Origin: Companilactobacillus kedongensis
GTDB taxonomy: Bacteria; Bacillota; Bacilli; Lactobacillales; Lactobacillaceae
Assembly (NCBI RefSeq): GCF_003946625.1
Contig: NZ_RHOR01000005.1
Coordinates: forward strand, 1-64,000
Length of the DNA: 64,000 bases
Reading direction: 5' to 3'
Positions 1,558 through 59,763 of this stretch are shown in pieces; position 1 is the stretch's first letter, and every line of letters begins with the position of its first letter. The notes below the pieces were generated by a model that saw nothing but the letters and a program-made list of their open reading frames with translations, did no database searches and was not told the DNA's origin. A program made the position numbers and the translations under genes.

Positions 1558-1692
1558 CTTATATAGCCAGGGAACGCTAGCGAATACGCCAACAGTAAAA
1601 TTGCTTTGAACGACAAAGTTGTCCTTACGTAATCAATGATTCTGAAATTTGCGCTCGCACAGCAGGCAAATTCATTGGTATTCGGAGACGGA
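1558..1692 (-). repeat. Cloverleaf repeat, degenerate copy with internal deletion
   Basis: Read on the minus strand this matches the left end (GAGACGG complement), the CAGCAGGC arm, the GATTCTGAAATTTGCG segment and the third hairpin of the other copies. The first hairpin and half of the second are missing, so the outer right arm follows the GATTTGCG block almost directly. A residual outer stem pairs GAATAC-CCAA with TTGG-TATTC. It lies directly upstream of the immunity-like gene. Confidence 0.65.
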
Positions 1693-4022: not shown

Positions 4023-4940
4023 ATGAGAAAATTTGGCATAATCGGTATTGGACATGTTGGAGTAACCATTGCCTATACCCTCGTTACTAAAGGTATTGCA
4101 GACGAATTAATTTTAATCGACAATAATGAGAAAAAAGCAGTGGCTGAACAACTCGATCTTGAAGATGCACAGGCAAGATTAGATACAACTACTCAAATCA
4201 AAATTCAGGACTATTCTGAATTAAAGGATGTTGATATTTTATTCTTAACTGCCGGCAAGATCGATGCCGCAAAGGAAACTGGTAGTCGTTGGGCTGAATT
4301 TGAGTTCACTAACGCTATGGTCAAAGAAGTTGCACCAAAAATCAAAAAATCAGGATTCAATGGTGTTGTGATAGACACAACTAATCCTTGCGATGCAATT
4401 ACCCAATATCTTCAAAAATCTACCGGACTTTCTCAACAACAAGTCTTTGGTACTGGAACATTCTTAGATACTGCCAGAATGCAACGTGTAGTCGCTAAAC
4501 AATTTAATGTCAACTCCAAAAATATTGCCGGTTATACACTTGGTGAACATGGTGATTCACAATTCGTCGCCTGGTCAGGTGTTACTGTAAATAGTCATCC
4601 TCTAGTGGAATTTGCCAAACAACAAGGAAAAGATCTCGATTATACCGCTCTTGAAGAAGAAATCAGAAAAGGCGGCTGGTCAGTATATCAAGGTAAAGGA
4701 TATACTAGCTACGGAATTGCTACATGTGCCGTCAAATTGGCAGAAGCTGTCCTTTCAGATGCTCAATTGGAATGTCCTGTATCCTGTTATGATAAAGAAT
4801 TTGATACTTATATCGGCCAACCAGCCGTAATTGGTAAAAATGGTATCGAATATGTCAATCCAGTTACTTTAACTGATGATGAAAAAGCTAAATTTAAGAA
4901 TTCAGCTGAGACTATTAAGAGTAAGTTTTCTACTATGTAG
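4023..4940 (+). CDS. hicD: L-2-hydroxyacid (hydroxyisocaproate-type) dehydrogenase of the LDH family
   Basis: This 305-residue protein belongs to the L-lactate/malate dehydrogenase family. It has a Rossmann start GIIGIGHVG (residues 5-13), the acidic residue LIDNN that binds the NAD ribose, the substrate arginine in LDTARMQR near 152 and the catalytic histidine in GEHGDS (174-179). The sequence resembles L-2-hydroxyisocaproate dehydrogenases of lactobacilli, which reduce branched or aromatic 2-oxo acids from amino acid breakdown to hydroxy acids and regenerate NAD. The exact substrate cannot be read from sequence, and L-lactate dehydrogenase activity is possible. The gene is monocistronic. 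A cloverleaf repeat begins five bases after its stop codon. Confidence 0.85.
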   Translation: MRKFGIIGIGHVGVTIAYTLVTKGIADELILIDNNEKKAVAEQLDLEDAQARLDTTTQIKIQDYSELKDVDILFLTAGKIDAAKETGSRWAEFEFTNAMVKEVAPKIKKSGFNGVVIDTTNPCDAITQYLQKSTGLSQQQVFGTGTFLDTARMQRVVAKQFNVNSKNIAGYTLGEHGDSQFVAWSGVTVNSHPLVEFAKQQGKDLDYTALEEEIRKGGWSVYQGKGYTSYGIATCAVKLAEAVLSDAQLECPVSCYDKEFDTYIGQPAVIGKNGIEYVNPVTLTDDEKAKFKNSAETIKSKFSTM

Positions 4941-4944
4941 GATT

Positions 4945-5118
4945 CCGTCTACAGAACCGAAAATATTCACCTGCTATGCGGAACGGGGCGAGCCATGGTC
5001 TCGCCTCCTCGGTTTGAAGCCTTGCAAAGTTCAGCAAGTCTTCGAACACGCCCGGTGGTGTAATGGCTAAAGCCATAACGCCACTGTCATAGCTGGTGGA
5101 TATTTTCAGTTCTTCCGA
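4945..5118 (+). repeat. Cloverleaf intergenic repeat, complete copy A
   Basis: The outer stem pairs 4954-4978 with 5088-5112 over about 25 bp with few mismatches. It encloses three hairpins: GGCGAG/CTCGCC near 4987-5005; TTGAAG-CTTGC/GCAAG-CTTCGAA near 5013-5045; and a 14-bp stem at 5055-5068 with 5071-5084 containing GTAATGGCT/AGCCATAAC. The same order recurs at 40898 and, inverted, at 41191, 51836 and 58886. It lies between hicD and the terminator hairpin at 5156. Confidence 0.85.
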
Positions 5119-5155
5119 CTAAATTATCCTTTCAATAATCTATATAAATACAAAG

Positions 5156-40043: not shown

Positions 40044-40081
40044 ATAATAACATTATAATGTTTATATGTAAAACGCTTTCT
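40044..40081 (-). promoter_or_regulatory. Promoter of the DUF4310 operon with embedded palindrome and cre-like site
   Basis: On the minus strand TTTACA (40067-40072) and TATTAT (40044-40049) are spaced by 17 bp. The spacer contains the perfect palindrome AACATTATAATGTT (40049-40062), a good candidate for a GntR operator. The -35 box overlaps GTAAAACGCTTTCT (40068-40081), which carries the core of a CcpA cre site. The layout suggests repression by both GntR and CcpA. Confidence 0.6.
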
Positions 40082-40784
40082 AAATCTCATATTTAATTTT
40101 ATATGGATTTAGAGAAGTTAAATAAATGGCCTCTGAATATTCAATCATTTTCCCTAAGTGATTATAGGACTTTCTAATCCTTCTAATACCTATATCTTCA
40201 GTAGTTTGGAGTTGTCTTTGCTCATCGGAATTTAATTTATAAGCGAAAAATTCATCATCAAAATTATTGACCATTTCGCCAACTTCTTTAATAACTTGGT
40301 AAAGTGACACCTTTTCTAATTCATATTTCATCTCATCAGTTAACTGAAATGGCAAATAATGGTGTAACAAAATATATGGCTTACCATTGAGATCGTATAT
40401 TTTACTGATCCGTGAAATATGACCAGTTAAACGATTTAAATCAAACTGAACTGGACTATCTTCTGAGGAGACTTCATCGATCGATAAAATTCTCTTCTCC
40501 AGTTGACTACCCTCATGTTCCAAAATGCTGCTGAAAGATTGGGCTTTTGACAGACGATTAAATAAAAGGTTACTAATAACCGTCGTACCTTTACCACTCT
40601 GTTTTTCAACGTAGCCTTCACTAACCAATACTTTTATAGCGTTACGAACGGTGATTTTACTAACGCTATAAATTCTTTCAAGTTCAGTTTCAGTTGGCAG
40701 AAAATCCCCAACATCATATTCACCAGATAAAATCTTTCTCTTCAGATCATCAGCAACTTGTTGATATAAAATAATTCTTTCCAT
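40080..40784 (-). CDS. GntR/HutC family regulator with UTRA domain
   Basis: This is a 234-residue protein. The N-terminal winged helix (residues 5-70) reads LYQQVADDLKRKILSGEYDVGDFLPTE, YSVSKITVRNAIKVLVSEGYVEKQSGKGT. Residues about 90-230 are the UTRA sensing domain (ISRISKIYDLNGKPYILLHHYLPF ... RIRKSYNHLGKMIEYSEAIYL). Regulators of this type in DUF4310-like clusters probably respond to a phosphorylated amino-sugar intermediate. TGGAGAAAA precedes the ATG. It lies directly upstream of the operon it likely controls. The repeat ATAATGATTAT occurs twice in its own upstream region (40815-40845). Confidence 0.88.
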   Translation of the reverse strand: MERIILYQQVADDLKRKILSGEYDVGDFLPTETELERIYSVSKITVRNAIKVLVSEGYVEKQSGKGTTVISNLLFNRLSKAQSFSSILEHEGSQLEKRILSIDEVSSEDSPVQFDLNRLTGHISRISKIYDLNGKPYILLHHYLPFQLTDEMKYELEKVSLYQVIKEVGEMVNNFDDEFFAYKLNSDEQRQLQTTEDIGIRRIRKSYNHLGKMIEYSEAIYLTSLNPYKIKYEI

Positions 40785-40897
40785 AAATTTTCTCCACTAG
40801 TTAATACTTTCTATAATCATTATATTATCATAATCATTAATTTAATTGTTAGAAATTCGATAAAAATCGACTTATATCTTTATTAATAGAGCTGTAT

Positions 40898-41065
40898 TCG
40901 TCTCCAGGCCTGAGAATATTTACCTTCTATTCGGAACGATCCGAGCCAAAGTCTCGAATCTCGGTTTGAAGCCTTGCAAGCAAGTCTCCAAACTCGCCCG
41001 GTGGTGTAAGAGCTAAAGCTCTAACGCCACTCTCACAGCAGGCTAATATTCTCAGACCTTCCGAC
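40898..41065 (+). repeat. Cloverleaf intergenic repeat, complete copy B
   Basis: The outer stem pairs 40907-40920 with 41045-41058 (GGCCTGAGAATATT with AATATTCTCAGACC). Inside are GAGCCAAAGTCTC, TTGAAGCCTTGC/GCAAGTCTCCAA and the 14-bp hairpin GTGGTGTAAGAGCT / AGCTCTAACGCCAC. The last stem differs from copy A at two base pairs, both compensated. The end GTCTCCAGG is the same as in the copy at 58886. It lies upstream of gntR and faces copy E. Confidence 0.85.
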
Positions 41066-41101
41066 TTAGTTTGTTTTTTTATATTTATTCACAATAAAAA
41101 T

Positions 41102-41151
41102 AGGAGTTGAATCAAACTTGAAATAAATCAAGCATGATTCAGCCCCTTCCT
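41102..41151. terminator. Imperfect hairpin of the GTATCACA family
   Basis: AGGAGTTGAATCA pairs imperfectly with TGATTCAGCCCCTTCCT. It follows copy B by 36 bp, as the hairpin at 5156 follows copy A. No gene ends just before it, so its role as a terminator is uncertain. Confidence 0.5.
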
Positions 41152-41190
41152 ATTAAGATTAACTTTCGATATTACATAAAAAACAATATA

Positions 41191-41360
41191 GCAAACGATT
41201 TTGAGTCATGGAACCAGTTGCGACTGTGGCGTTAGAAGGTGTATTTCCTTCTTACACCACGAACGATTCTGAGATTTGCGTTAGCAAAGCTTGGAATCGA
41301 GGTCCAAGACCAAGGCTTGGACCGGTTCCGTAACAGGTGGAATTACTCAAAATCGTATGC
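41191..41360 (-). repeat. Cloverleaf intergenic repeat, complete copy E (inverted)
   Basis: The outer stem pairs GCAAACGATTTTGAGT with ACTCAAAATCGTATGC, continuing inward for about 29 bp. The plus strand shows hairpins GTGGCGTTAGAAGG/CCTTCTTACACCAC, GATTCTGAGATTTGC/GCAAAGCTTGGAATC and GGTCCAAG/CTTGGACC. This is the same three-hairpin order as copies A, B and D in reverse orientation, with largely different stem sequences. It ends five bases before the histidine kinase stop codon. Confidence 0.85.
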
Positions 41361-41365
41361 GGAAG

Positions 41366-42853
41366 TTATTTCCCATCTGCAGTATGTTCATACCCATCAT
41401 CAAAGAAAGTAACCGTAAAGGTAGTACCTTTATCCAGCTTACTCTTAACATCGATCTCGCCACCATGGTTTTCGATCAACTGATGAACGATCGACAATCC
41501 CAAACCAGACTCACCGTATTTACGATTCTTACGCGATGGATCGGCTTTATAATAACGATCCCAAATATTCTTAACTTGATCTTCGGACATCCCAATACCG
41601 GTATCCTCGATCGTAAAGATCGAAGCGTGCCTATCATCAGCACGATAACCAGTTACGACAACTTCACCATCATTGGTAAATTGAATCGAGTTTTGCATGA
41701 TATTGAACATAACTTGAACGAAACGATCATAGTCAGCATAGGTCATCAATTTATCTTCCGGAGTTTCCAAAATCAATTTATCATTAGATTCTTCAGCTTT
41801 TTTCTTAAGTTGTGACGTAATATCTCTTAACGGAACATTGGCGTCAAATTCTCTTCTAGCTAAAGTAATCTGATTAGTTCTGATTTTTTCATAATCAAGA
41901 TTTTCATTGACCAAACGAATCAAACGATTGGTCTCATTTCGCATCAATTCAATACTTTGGCCTTTAGATTCCTCAGGAATGGCATCATATGCCAGACCCT
42001 CCAGCAATCCATTGATAGTGGTCAAAGGTGTCCTCATTTCATGTGATGCATCGGCCATAAATTCCTTACGACGTTGTTCTTGACGTTTGATTTCTTTATC
42101 TGAAGCTTCCAACGACTTAACCATCTTATTAAAGTCATCGGCCAAATCATCCAATTCATCCCGATTCTTACTTTCGATTTGAACTGAAAAATCATTATTG
42201 GCAACTCTTCTCGTTGCACTACGCAATCTATTTATTCGGTTAACTTGATAGCGTGACAATAAGAAACTCAGAATTATCGCAGCTAATAAGGAGATCAGCA
42301 AGGCAAAGTACAGCCGGCTATTGATCTCACCAATATTAGTTTGTAATTCACTCACATCAGAACCCGCCCAAACGGCGGCAACTAATTTACCATTCTGAAA
42401 CCACGGCGTCAGCACATAAACATAACTGATGTCGCCCTTCTTGCTTAGTTGTGGATTGCCCTCGGTACCTTCTGGTTTCTGAATATTTCGAATAGTTTTA
42501 CCTTGTTTTAATTTATTCCAGTACGACTTTTTCAAATGTAATTTCACATTATTAGGATGTGCTGGATAAACTTGATTATTCTTATAATCAAACACAGCAA
42601 ATTGAACATTACGTTCTGACAAAACTTGCTCGACAGTACGAATGTTATCGCCGGTAATATTGTGGATTTCACCTGTATTAGGGTCTGTTTTAAGTGCTAT
42701 TTTTTCCAAATTTCCTGCGTAACTCTCCAAGCTCTTGTAAGTTCGGTTATATTCCCAAGTCGTTGAAGTACTGGTAACTGAATAGAGAATAATTCCAAGA
42801 GTCGTCAAAATAACGATCAAGAAACTCAGCATATTTTGATAAATTAATTTCAT
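41366..42853 (-). CDS. Sensor histidine kinase (HAMP-HisKA-HATPase)
   Basis: This is a 495-residue membrane kinase. A first membrane helix lies at residues 8-30, an extracytoplasmic domain of about 150 residues follows, and the second helix lies at about 183-205 (LYFALLISLLAAIILSFLLS). Next come a HAMP linker, the phosphoacceptor segment FMADASHEMRTPLTTI and the ATPase with VQVMFNIMQNSIQF (N box), IEDTGIGMSEDQ (G1) and GLGLSIVHQLI (G2). It phosphorylates the response regulator encoded three bases upstream. The signal is unknown; the outer domain has no recognisable ligand motif. It ends against a cloverleaf repeat rather than a clear terminator. Confidence 0.92.
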   Translation of the reverse strand: MKLIYQNMLSFLIVILTTLGIILYSVTSTSTTWEYNRTYKSLESYAGNLEKIALKTDPNTGEIHNITGDNIRTVEQVLSERNVQFAVFDYKNNQVYPAHPNNVKLHLKKSYWNKLKQGKTIRNIQKPEGTEGNPQLSKKGDISYVYVLTPWFQNGKLVAAVWAGSDVSELQTNIGEINSRLYFALLISLLAAIILSFLLSRYQVNRINRLRSATRRVANNDFSVQIESKNRDELDDLADDFNKMVKSLEASDKEIKRQEQRRKEFMADASHEMRTPLTTINGLLEGLAYDAIPEESKGQSIELMRNETNRLIRLVNENLDYEKIRTNQITLARREFDANVPLRDITSQLKKKAEESNDKLILETPEDKLMTYADYDRFVQVMFNIMQNSIQFTNDGEVVVTGYRADDRHASIFTIEDTGIGMSEDQVKNIWDRYYKADPSRKNRKYGESGLGLSIVHQLIENHGGEIDVKSKLDKGTTFTVTFFDDGYEHTADGK

Positions 42854-51780: not shown

Positions 51781-51815
51781 AAGTGGTCATCTGAAATACA
51801 GAGACCACTTTTTTA
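51781..51815 (+). terminator. Terminator of coaBC
   Basis: AAGTGGTC pairs with GACCACTT, and TTTT follows. Confidence 0.75.
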
Positions 51816-51835
51816 TTACCACCCACTATATATTT

Positions 51836-52012
51836 AGCCGGAGAGTACAAGAAGAATGGCAGCAGTGAAAATGTCGTTAGGACGGTGGTTTACCGTTCTT
51901 ACGACATCGGCGATTCTGAGATTTGCGAAAAGCAAAGCTCAAAATCGAGATTCCAGACCTTGGCTGGAATCGGCCGCACAGCAGACCATTCTTCTTGTAC
52001 TCGTAGGCGGCT
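51836..52012 (-). repeat. Cloverleaf intergenic repeat, complete copy F (inverted)
   Basis: The outer stem pairs 51843-51867 with 51977-52002 (GAGTACAAGAAGAATGG with CCATTCTTCTTGTACTC) and extends to AGCC/GGCT. Inside are hairpins ATGTCGTTAGGACGG/CCGTTCTTACGACAT, GATTCTGAGATTTGC/GCAAAGCTC-AAATC and GATTCCAG/CTGGAATC. The GATTCTGAGATTTGCG block is the same as in copy E. It lies between coaBC and the permease, both on the plus strand, so it is antisense to any shared transcript. Confidence 0.85.
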
Positions 52013-58772: not shown

Positions 58773-58800
58773 GTTTGCCGTCTCCAGGGATAAGAATATT
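58773..58800 (+). repeat. Left-end fragment of the cloverleaf repeat
   Basis: GTTTGCCGTCTCCAGG at 58773-58788 is a perfect 16-bp inverted copy of 59047-59062, the outer end of copy D, and is followed by ATAAGAATATTC, like the next part of the arm. The fragment and copy D therefore bound a 290-bp segment with inverted ends. Confidence 0.7.
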
Positions 58801-58815
58801 CAACCATAATAAAAA

Positions 58816-58850
58816 CCCCTTAATTTGAATTTAAAAATCAAATTAGGAGG
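58816..58850. terminator. Hairpin between the left-end fragment and copy D
   Basis: CCCCTTAATTTGA pairs with TCAAATTAGGAGG around an AT-rich loop and is followed by CTTATTTT. It is of terminator type, though no gene ends directly before it. Confidence 0.5.
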
Positions 58851-58885
58851 CTTATTTTGTGTAATTATTTTAAATACCAATCAAG

Positions 58886-59059
58886 TCGTAAGGACTGAGG
58901 ATATTTACCAGCTATGACAACGCCGTTATGGCTTTAGCCATTACGGCATCGGGTGAGTTTGGAGACTTGCGAATCTTGCAAGGCTTAAAACCAAGGTGCG
59001 AGACCGTGGCTCGGACCGTCCCGCATAGCAGGTGAATATCCTCAGTCCTGGAGACGGCA
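58886..59059 (-). repeat. Cloverleaf intergenic repeat, complete copy D (inverted)
   Basis: The outer stem pairs 58891-58916 with 59024-59049 at 24 of 26 positions. Inside, plus-strand order is the hairpin GCCGTTATGGCT/AGCCATTACGGC (58922-58947), then GGAGACTTGC/GCAAGGCTT and then GTGCGAGACC/GGCTCGGACC. Read on the minus strand it matches copy A base by base except for stem changes that keep pairing. It begins 14 bp after the metI stop codon. Confidence 0.88.
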
Positions 59060-59073
59060 AACCTAAAACCAAG

Positions 59074-59763
59074 TTAATGTTCCAACTTACGAACTAGCAA
59101 ATCACCAATTCCTTGAATAACGAAAACCAATATCAAAATGAAAATCATTGAGACAATAGTTACATCATTTTCAAATCGTTGATAACCAACAGCGATGGCC
59201 ATATTACCTAAACCACCACCACCAACGGCACCAGCCATGGCAGTTAATCCGATCAAACTAATAGTCGTGAAAGTTCCTGAACGGATCAATTCTGGAAGTC
59301 CCTCTTTTAGATAAACTCTAAAGATGATCTTCATTGGTGATAATCCCATTGCTTCTGCAGCTTCGATCACACCATGATCAACTTCAACTAAAGCTAATTG
59401 AACTTGTCTAGCGAAGAATGGTGCTGTACCAATGATCAACGGTACTAATGCACCTTTTGGTCCAATCGTTTGACCAACGACTAACTTTGTAAAAGGTCCG
59501 ATTACGGCTAACAAAATAACGAAAGGAATCGAACGGAACAGGTTAACTAACTTGTCCAAAATATTGTAGAAAGTCTTGTGCGGAGTAATTCCGTCATCAG
59601 TTGTTACTACTAGCAAAATACCTAGGATGATACCAAAGATACCAGCGAATATGGCACTGACAAAAGTCATATATAATGTTTGCCAAATGGCAACTACGAA
59701 ACCATTGTCACCTTCCCAGTTTGCTACAACATTGGGGAGATATGTATTAATAAAATTGGTCAC
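59074..59763 (-). CDS. metI: Methionine ABC transporter permease MetI
   Basis: This 229-residue permease has five membrane helices. It carries the ABC permease coupling loop EAAEAMGLSPMKIIFRVYLKEGLPELI and the family segment LVNLFRSIPFVILLAVIGP, and ends with GVIQGIGDLLVRKLEH-like VIQGIGDLLVRKLEH. It forms the membrane channel of the MetNIQ methionine importer. It starts at GTG 59763 behind AAGGAGG, two bases after the metN stop codon. Last gene of the T-box controlled operon. Confidence 0.94.
   Translation of the reverse strand: MTNFINTYLPNVVANWEGDNGFVVAIWQTLYMTFVSAIFAGIFGIILGILLVVTTDDGITPHKTFYNILDKLVNLFRSIPFVILLAVIGPFTKLVVGQTIGPKGALVPLIIGTAPFFARQVQLALVEVDHGVIEAAEAMGLSPMKIIFRVYLKEGLPELIRSGTFTTISLIGLTAMAGAVGGGGLGNMAIAVGYQRFENDVTIVSMIFILILVFVIQGIGDLLVRKLEH

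Follow-up and report, generated by a model that had tools for sequence, protein, structure and literature searches.

Dispersed cloverleaf repeats beside intrinsic terminators in Companilactobacillus kedongensis: a covarying fold that probably acts as DNA in what are probably old MITE-like passengers

Introduction

Terminator or gyrase-site roles have been proposed for REP elements, and for the EFAR repeats also. In 2007 Venditti et al. reportedly placed the EFAR of enterococci near stop codons and ascribed terminator activity to them; we know of no cloverleaf architecture for EFAR. Integron attC sites are folded-DNA targets of a recombinase and serve as landing sites for group II introns (group IIC). 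The part of PMC3733652 that deals with REP and BIME elements describes them as dispersed palindromic DNA at the 3' ends of transcription units, often arranged as inverted neighbours and mostly found between convergent or co-directional genes, and the same source treats EFAR as a MITE-like repeat of lactic acid bacteria (PMC3733652).

The repeats considered here were encountered in a window of 64,000 nucleotides (the whole stretch of DNA that was analysed) in the genome of C. kedongensis, an assembly of 2.27 Mb in 37 contigs. Judging by the 87–92% identity of long matches to the window, this genome is a close relative of that of C. keshanensis. A first-pass annotation of the window had described five complete copies of an intergenic repeat, each folding as a cloverleaf of three hairpins inside an outer stem, and had offered a non-autonomous mobile element or a structured RNA among its possible explanations. 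A published description of the family was not found in our literature search, with subscription papers largely outside its reach.

Results and Discussion

The search of the genome and its relatives that the first-pass annotation had proposed was conducted with a covariance model of 59 copies (alignment A2, for which 77 copies were extracted, seven truncated ones omitted and 59 of the remaining 70 used). It returned at least 149 matches in this genome, and seven more copies adjoining these bring the number to at least 156, with a unit of approximately 175 bp (range 160–193 bp); the small family of a few copies that would have told against the annotation was thus not what emerged. Nor did a match to a described RNA, the second outcome it had named as adverse: Rfam gave none at the gathering threshold in the window and nothing near threshold at the copies of seven loci, consistent with its knowing of no named RNA that has this layout.

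All five window copies described at the outset were recovered by the model, with ends within 3 bases and E values of 1e-25 to 6e-47, and their description as dispersed intergenic repeats holds. The copy at 58884–59058 (minus strand), which is kept in C. keshanensis, has its 5' end 15 nt past the stop codon of a MetI-like permease gene (59074–59763, minus strand), and a terminator-like hairpin (58812–58858, limits approximate, by eye) separates it from a 26-nt 5' remnant of a second cloverleaf at 58777–58802 (plus strand), on the opposite side of the terminator. The C. keshanensis copy corresponding to this remnant is whole, and the loss at this site lies on the side of the present genome. The 5' end of the copy at 4944–5120 (plus strand) is 3 nt past the stop codon of an L-lactate dehydrogenase gene (4023–4940). 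A convergent pair is formed by a left member at 40897–41066 (plus strand) and a right member at 41190–41363 (minus strand), the latter with its 5' end 2 nt past the stop codon of a histidine kinase gene (41366–42853, minus strand), and a terminator-like hairpin lies inside the pair (41096–41154, limits approximate, by eye). Alignment reveals no trace of the left member at the corresponding C. keshanensis site, which could be either a gain or a loss, while the right member has there lost its core and left outer-arm sequence. Last, the copy at 51836–52011 (minus strand) lies past the terminator of the coaBC gene, with its 3' end facing the terminator-like hairpin (51781–51814, limits approximate, by eye); it is absent from C. 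keshanensis, where a decayed end seems to persist. The count of five complete copies therefore stands, but two decayed ones had been overlooked, namely the 58777–58802 remnant and a copy at 1565–1692 (minus strand; E 2.3e-5 with the covariance model) that has lost part of its core. Readable sequence is common to the copies at 4944, 40897 and 58884, and those at 41190 and 51836 are more diverged, with the core in common and outer-stem arms that are different yet still complementary. By eye, the terminator between the genes at 40080–40784 and 41366–42853 differs from that of C. keshanensis with flanks that are alike (40820–41430), and as such terminator stems may turn over fast too.

Within Companilactobacillus, matches were found in 31 of 36 genomes, the present one included, leaving five without any at this threshold; six genomes have at least 76 copies each, and in C. 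keshanensis 38 matches amount to 31 distinct places. An exact DNA pattern of the core, sought in one genome each of 84,980 species, yielded 49 stretches confined to C. huachuanensis, C. nantensis, C. hulinensis and C. keshanensis, although the pattern is so tight that its absence in other species says little. In an order-wide sample of 198 genomes from 54 genera, the covariance model matched 14 genomes (this one included) from 8 genera. Within the same family, clear matches came from two genomes of a different genus (E values down to 1e-18 and 3e-16) and a weak one from a third, and three other families of the order gave weak matches, with a best E per genome of 4e-8 to 2e-4. Nine single distant copies fold with long outer stems and inner hairpins (z of -9.9 for the one in genome G048); their arms are unrelated, and by eye six have the GAGCC..GTCTC hairpin, two a variant of it and one neither. 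We regard these matches elsewhere in the order as leads rather than a measured distribution. A search for plasmid-borne relatives with one copy as query gave no match.

The core of the unit consists of three hairpins, two of which lie inside a short extra helix (A2 columns 44–46 with 125–127), and a long outer stem encloses the whole. Shuffle-controlled folding of two window copies gave a z of -8.0 for 58884–59058 as DNA and -10.7 for 51836–52011 as RNA, with none of 200 shuffles as good in either case. Two-sided changes occur at 49 of the 59 pairs, in 383 alignment cells versus 82 in shuffles, and 95.5% of cells are paired, as compared with 83.3% in shuffled alignments and at most 43.7% in slid controls, so that the loss of pairing with more copies, the third outcome named as adverse, did not occur. 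The outer stem is the least constrained part, in that near-identical cores carry unrelated but complementary arms. Each copy thus keeps its three-hairpin core within an outer stem by Watson–Crick changes on both arms, and the cloverleaf layout originally described is upheld by these changes but needs to be amended by the extra helix around two of the hairpins.

At 16 orthologous sites, chosen by hand, we count 83 double changes versus 18 expected for independent sites, 71 of them from one Watson–Crick pair to another; two of the site pairs, with identities of 56% and 67%, are perhaps not orthologous, and leaving them out gives 44 Watson–Crick double changes and seven others. Among 27 independent pairs of copies that are at least 88% alike there are 51 double changes (48 Watson–Crick and three others) versus 4.7 expected. 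Double changes this fast, even between copies so similar, suggest that the arms template each other.

A functional RNA tolerates G·U pairs on its own strand, while the matching A·C is rare, and the paired columns can be examined in this light. In 123 rows (from the 126 of alignment A3, omitting two opposite-strand shadows and the weakest copy) there are 6425 Watson–Crick, 198 G·T, 174 A·C and 220 other cells. A second set, mostly from other species and reduced from 123 to 119 rows by dropping four shadows, gives 6306, 148, 182 and 129, respectively; it also underlies the close-copy and clustering counts. Twelve tRNAs from the same DNA, serving as a control, display 250 Watson–Crick and 17 G·T pairs with no A·C or other pair. 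The tolerance of G·U on one strand and not of A·C is therefore not seen in the cloverleafs, and the near equality of G·T and A·C, set against 17 to 0 in the tRNAs, suggests that it is the DNA that folds and not a single RNA strand. Much of both counts, however, comes from a small number of columns in which wobble is standing. When one such pair is left out of the first alignment A·C exceeds G·T by 88 to 41, and single changes between close copies give A·C 37 and G·T 15; in these two subsets the excess of A·C amounts to a lean toward the minus strand. Taken together, the wobble counts speak against a plus strand selected as RNA, the case against the minus strand being only a mild one, and the earlier suggestion of a structured RNA working on either strand is disfavored accordingly, with some lean to the minus strand.

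It may be asked whether the covariation requires selection at all. Dead inverted repeats whose arms are rewritten by template switching at replication forks would covary with the fold itself unselected, and we give this purely mutational account a limited chance of being the whole explanation. The excess of Watson–Crick double changes in copies at least 88% alike is what it would lead one to expect, as is the parity of G·T and A·C, and a template-switch process in which hairpin arms template each other has been proposed for hairpins in general (PMC8794818). On the other hand, conserved junction bases and the similar core found in other families of the order call for selection or repeated spread, and adjacent double changes are only weakly clustered (6 versus 2.5, a value of 6 being reached in 53 of 2000 shuffles).

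The copies are placed about terminators in a regular manner. In this genome, grouping the copies separated by less than 1 kb gives 44 clusters, 43 of them "+-" and one "++-", with gaps of 45–482 nt that often contain a terminator-like hairpin; 60 of the 149 copies have no neighbor within 1 kb among the listed matches, some of which gain one via the seven added copies. Of 127 copies, 77 have a terminator-like hairpin no more than 130 nt from their 3' end and 16 have one as near to their 5' end (2 and 1 in shuffled sequence), with a median start of 29 nt. The first-pass annotation had seen no consistent orientation relative to genes; with respect to terminators in this genome this is refuted, the 3' end tending to face one. 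Gene contexts, assigned to 133 of the 149 copies by simple open-frame rules rather than annotation, are convergent for 59, divergent for three and unseen on one side for six, and the tandem contexts are split between 34 copies on the 3'-UTR side, following a stop codon in the sense direction, and 31 past the next terminator. For 96 of the 133 the gene on the 5' side reads in sense, and the 5' end often falls 1–20 nt past its stop codon. As copies occur on either side of a terminator, which looks alike from both, the cue for orientation is more likely the terminator than the gene.

Pair members resemble each other no better than copies drawn at random do (58.1% versus 57.7%, 47 pairs), which rules out a single inverted duplication as the origin of a pair and indicates that the members arrived or evolve independently. 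By eye, a GAGTTGTATCAC..GTGATACAACTC-like stem recurs in several of the terminators next to copies, which gives them the look of a dispersed family of their own. A shared terminator hairpin within the mobile unit was also considered, and a strict finder gave no enrichment of it (5 of 37 near copies, 3 of 35 far from them).

Other species follow this arrangement in part. Of the 49 exact-pattern loci, neighbors within 1 kb are "+-" in 33 of 38 cases ("--" in three, "++" and "-+" in one each). In C. huachuanensis the 3' end also faces the terminator, more weakly than in this genome: terminators within 350 nt are on the 3' side of 36 and the 5' side of 11 of 79 copies, and within 130 nt on the 3' side of 17 and the 5' side of 11 of 77, the contexts of the 79 being convergent for 23, tandem for 31 and divergent for nine, with the rest at locus ends. 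C. nantensis displays no terminator bias among 34 copies (3' side 7, 5' side 10), nor within 130 nt among 32 (4 and 9); its subfamily A has 0 and 1 among three copies, and of 37 contexts two are convergent, 21 tandem and six divergent, with the rest at locus ends. The terminator placement of this genome does not, as such, generalize fully to other species.

A placement of this kind could reflect a use to the host, with the folded DNA absorbing supercoils or blocking read-through as a bidirectional insulator at the transcription ends of convergent genes. This is conceivable, though we would hold it with reserve. A position symmetric about terminators, compensation at the orthologous sites (83 double changes against 18) and divergent promoter regions that are almost empty in this genome (3 of 133) would all suit such a role; however, the 31 places in C. 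keshanensis against at least 156 here mark the element as dispensable, five of the 36 genus genomes have no copies at this threshold, and the placement in C. nantensis differs.

The sense orientation of the 5'-side gene might alternatively be read as the mark of a structured RNA of 3' untranslated regions, lying between stop codon and terminator and either protecting the mRNA end or binding a protein. The strong covariation would agree with this, as would a 5' end so often within 20 nt of the stop codon and the two subsets with an excess of A·C, the minus-strand equivalent of G·U. Yet tandem copies lie past the terminator nearly as often as in the sense position (31 versus 34), and there is no overall G·U excess on either strand comparable to the 17 to 0 of the tRNAs. 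We consider an RNA of this type unlikely.

With regard to age and movement, the median similarity of a copy to its nearest relative is 78% in this genome and 91% for 79 C. huachuanensis copies. Decayed ends or arms persist at some C. keshanensis sites that lack a copy, among those compared, and such absences look like losses. The 17 candidate rows for empty sites include several that are opposite-strand or repeated rows of one site, and upon alignment some retain remnants while others are too diverged to read; as such, the clean presence or absence at orthologous intergenic sites that had been proposed as a check was not found at any of the loci compared.

In C. huachuanensis one subfamily is bounded by a 15-bp inverted repeat of IS4 type, ACTAAAGGTTGAAAG. 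With up to one mismatch this repeat occurs at 368 sites in C. huachuanensis and at nine in genome G029, and the reversed pattern once in each. We examined 26 bounded units of 108–1054 bp, a decayed insertion sequence included, and found target duplications of 5–6 bp in 13 (shuffled flanks: mean 0.8, maximum 5, in 2000 shuffles). Eighteen of the units are 313–341 bp long (about 320 bp); nearly all of these contain the cloverleaf or its core motif, and ten have a target duplication. The inverted repeats and duplications together support the reading of this subfamily as a MITE. Copies of an IS4-type insertion sequence of approximately 1.05–1.45 kb have the same ends, and the transposase family NF049925 has 14 matching pieces in C. 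huachuanensis, with no complete open frame seen among them; in other genomes such an element is partial or absent. The cloverleaf's own ends gave no clear target duplication in 128, 78 and 35 copies of three genomes, so that movement of the cloverleaf by itself is unsupported. The earlier proposal of a non-autonomous mobile element is therefore supported for one C. huachuanensis subfamily and not for the copies of this genome.

As a general driver the IS4-type transposase is at best partial: NF049925 matches eight of the 36 genus genomes, four of the six with at least 76 copies and four of the 30 others, and G008 and G029, each with at least 76 copies, are without an IS4-type match. On contig C18 of this genome (locus L312) a decayed IS4-type transposase lies between convergent cloverleafs at 465–638 and 2047–2173, where other pairs carry only a terminator. 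Loss of SbcCD as a cause of palindrome tolerance was also set aside, with SbcC-like matches in 36 of 36 genomes (none above the curated cut-off and very weak in G034) and long matches also in copy-rich genomes, namely the present one, G008, C. huachuanensis and G029. In the copy-rich G002 the SbcC-like gene (C1:273966–277102) is in two separate open frames of 785 and 378 aa. That the repeats are REP or BIME elements moved by a RAYT (Y1 transposase) is highly improbable, since Y1_Tnp, matched in 18 of the 36 genomes, does not track copy number, being absent from copy-rich G002, C. nantensis and G008, fragmentary in this genome and C. huachuanensis and full-length in copy-free genomes such as G006 and G025, and the unit is of about 175 bp rather than 20–40, despite the two full-length matches of copy-rich G029 and the inverted pairs at gene 3' ends, which recall the REP families as PMC3733652 in part describes them.

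In this genome several copies are cut off by the end of a contig. We inspected 46 contig ends, two from each of 23 of the 37 contigs. At four of them a cloverleaf gives way to the 5' end of a group II intron (RF02001, above threshold at two), and at another four the 3' end of a group II intron (RF00029) is followed by the remaining half of a cloverleaf. The eight junctions (start and end of C10, start of C16, end of C18, start of C34, end of C13, end of C35 and start of C37) share one minus-strand position, with ..CGCA or CTCA preceding it and TA(G/A)CAGGTG following, and the cloverleaf thus appears to be the homing site of a group II intron. At four more ends (C8 start, C34 end, C11 end and C14 start) cloverleaf or cloverleaf-like sequence is continued by other repeated elements, one or two in kind, with ends GCGTTAATCCC.. 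and GCGTTAGTACCC.., and as these begin inside such sequence the copies are in use by one or more additional mobile elements.

Conclusions

On balance we think it probable that these are short non-coding repeats with a DNA-level fold, situated in this genome beside intrinsic terminators, and that they are old MITE-like passengers. The copies would have been moved by borrowed transposases, presumably of the IS4 family in C. huachuanensis. Complementarity of the arms may have been kept in part by one hairpin arm serving as template for the other at replication, and in part by the restriction of movement or recognition to copies that still fold well. Terminators would offer the copies a tolerated or targeted niche, and core deletion may be the end stage of their decay. 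A more ambitious reading, which we entertain only tentatively, is of an order-wide conserved folded-DNA element that marks transcription ends, with a cloverleaf read as DNA by proteins or intron particles, arms that are free so long as they are paired, and a dual existence as a boundary at bidirectional terminators and a common point of entry for insertion sequences and group II introns. The reading as old MITE-like passengers still has two rivals, namely a role for the host at gene ends and a covariation of purely mutational origin.

When paired bases change in a compensatory way, this is usually accepted as proof that an RNA is functional. The present fold, multi-branched and covarying very strongly, shows no RNA-like wobble bias and is symmetric about terminators, and it therefore constitutes a natural case in which selection on DNA folds can be weighed against arm-templated mutation. 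Furthermore, as some related species have no copies and others at least 150, gain, decay and any effect at gene ends are directly comparable, and the repeated entry of group II introns at one position in the fold makes for a testable homing site.

In comparison with described systems, the inverted pairs at gene 3' ends in this genome are like those of REP and BIME elements. The unit, in contrast to a hairpin of 20–40 bp, spans 160–193 bp with three hairpins, and it is not a 20–40 bp palindrome with a GTAG or CGTC tag, although CGTC is common at its 5' end as part of the larger unit. Nor is there a consistent RAYT partner: of the six genomes with at least 76 copies, three are without Y1_Tnp, two have fragments and one has it full-length. 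The C. huachuanensis subfamily is akin to IS4-derived MITEs in its inverted repeats and 5–6 bp target duplications, whereas the copies of the other genomes examined are mainly without such ends (nine sites in G029), and the cloverleaf would accordingly seem to be a module of longer life than the particular ends around it. Like attC sites, it is conserved more in structure than in sequence and is a landing site for group II introns; unlike them, it is placed around terminators. Most probably, then, the cloverleafs are a new MITE/BIME-like family whose fold acts as DNA.
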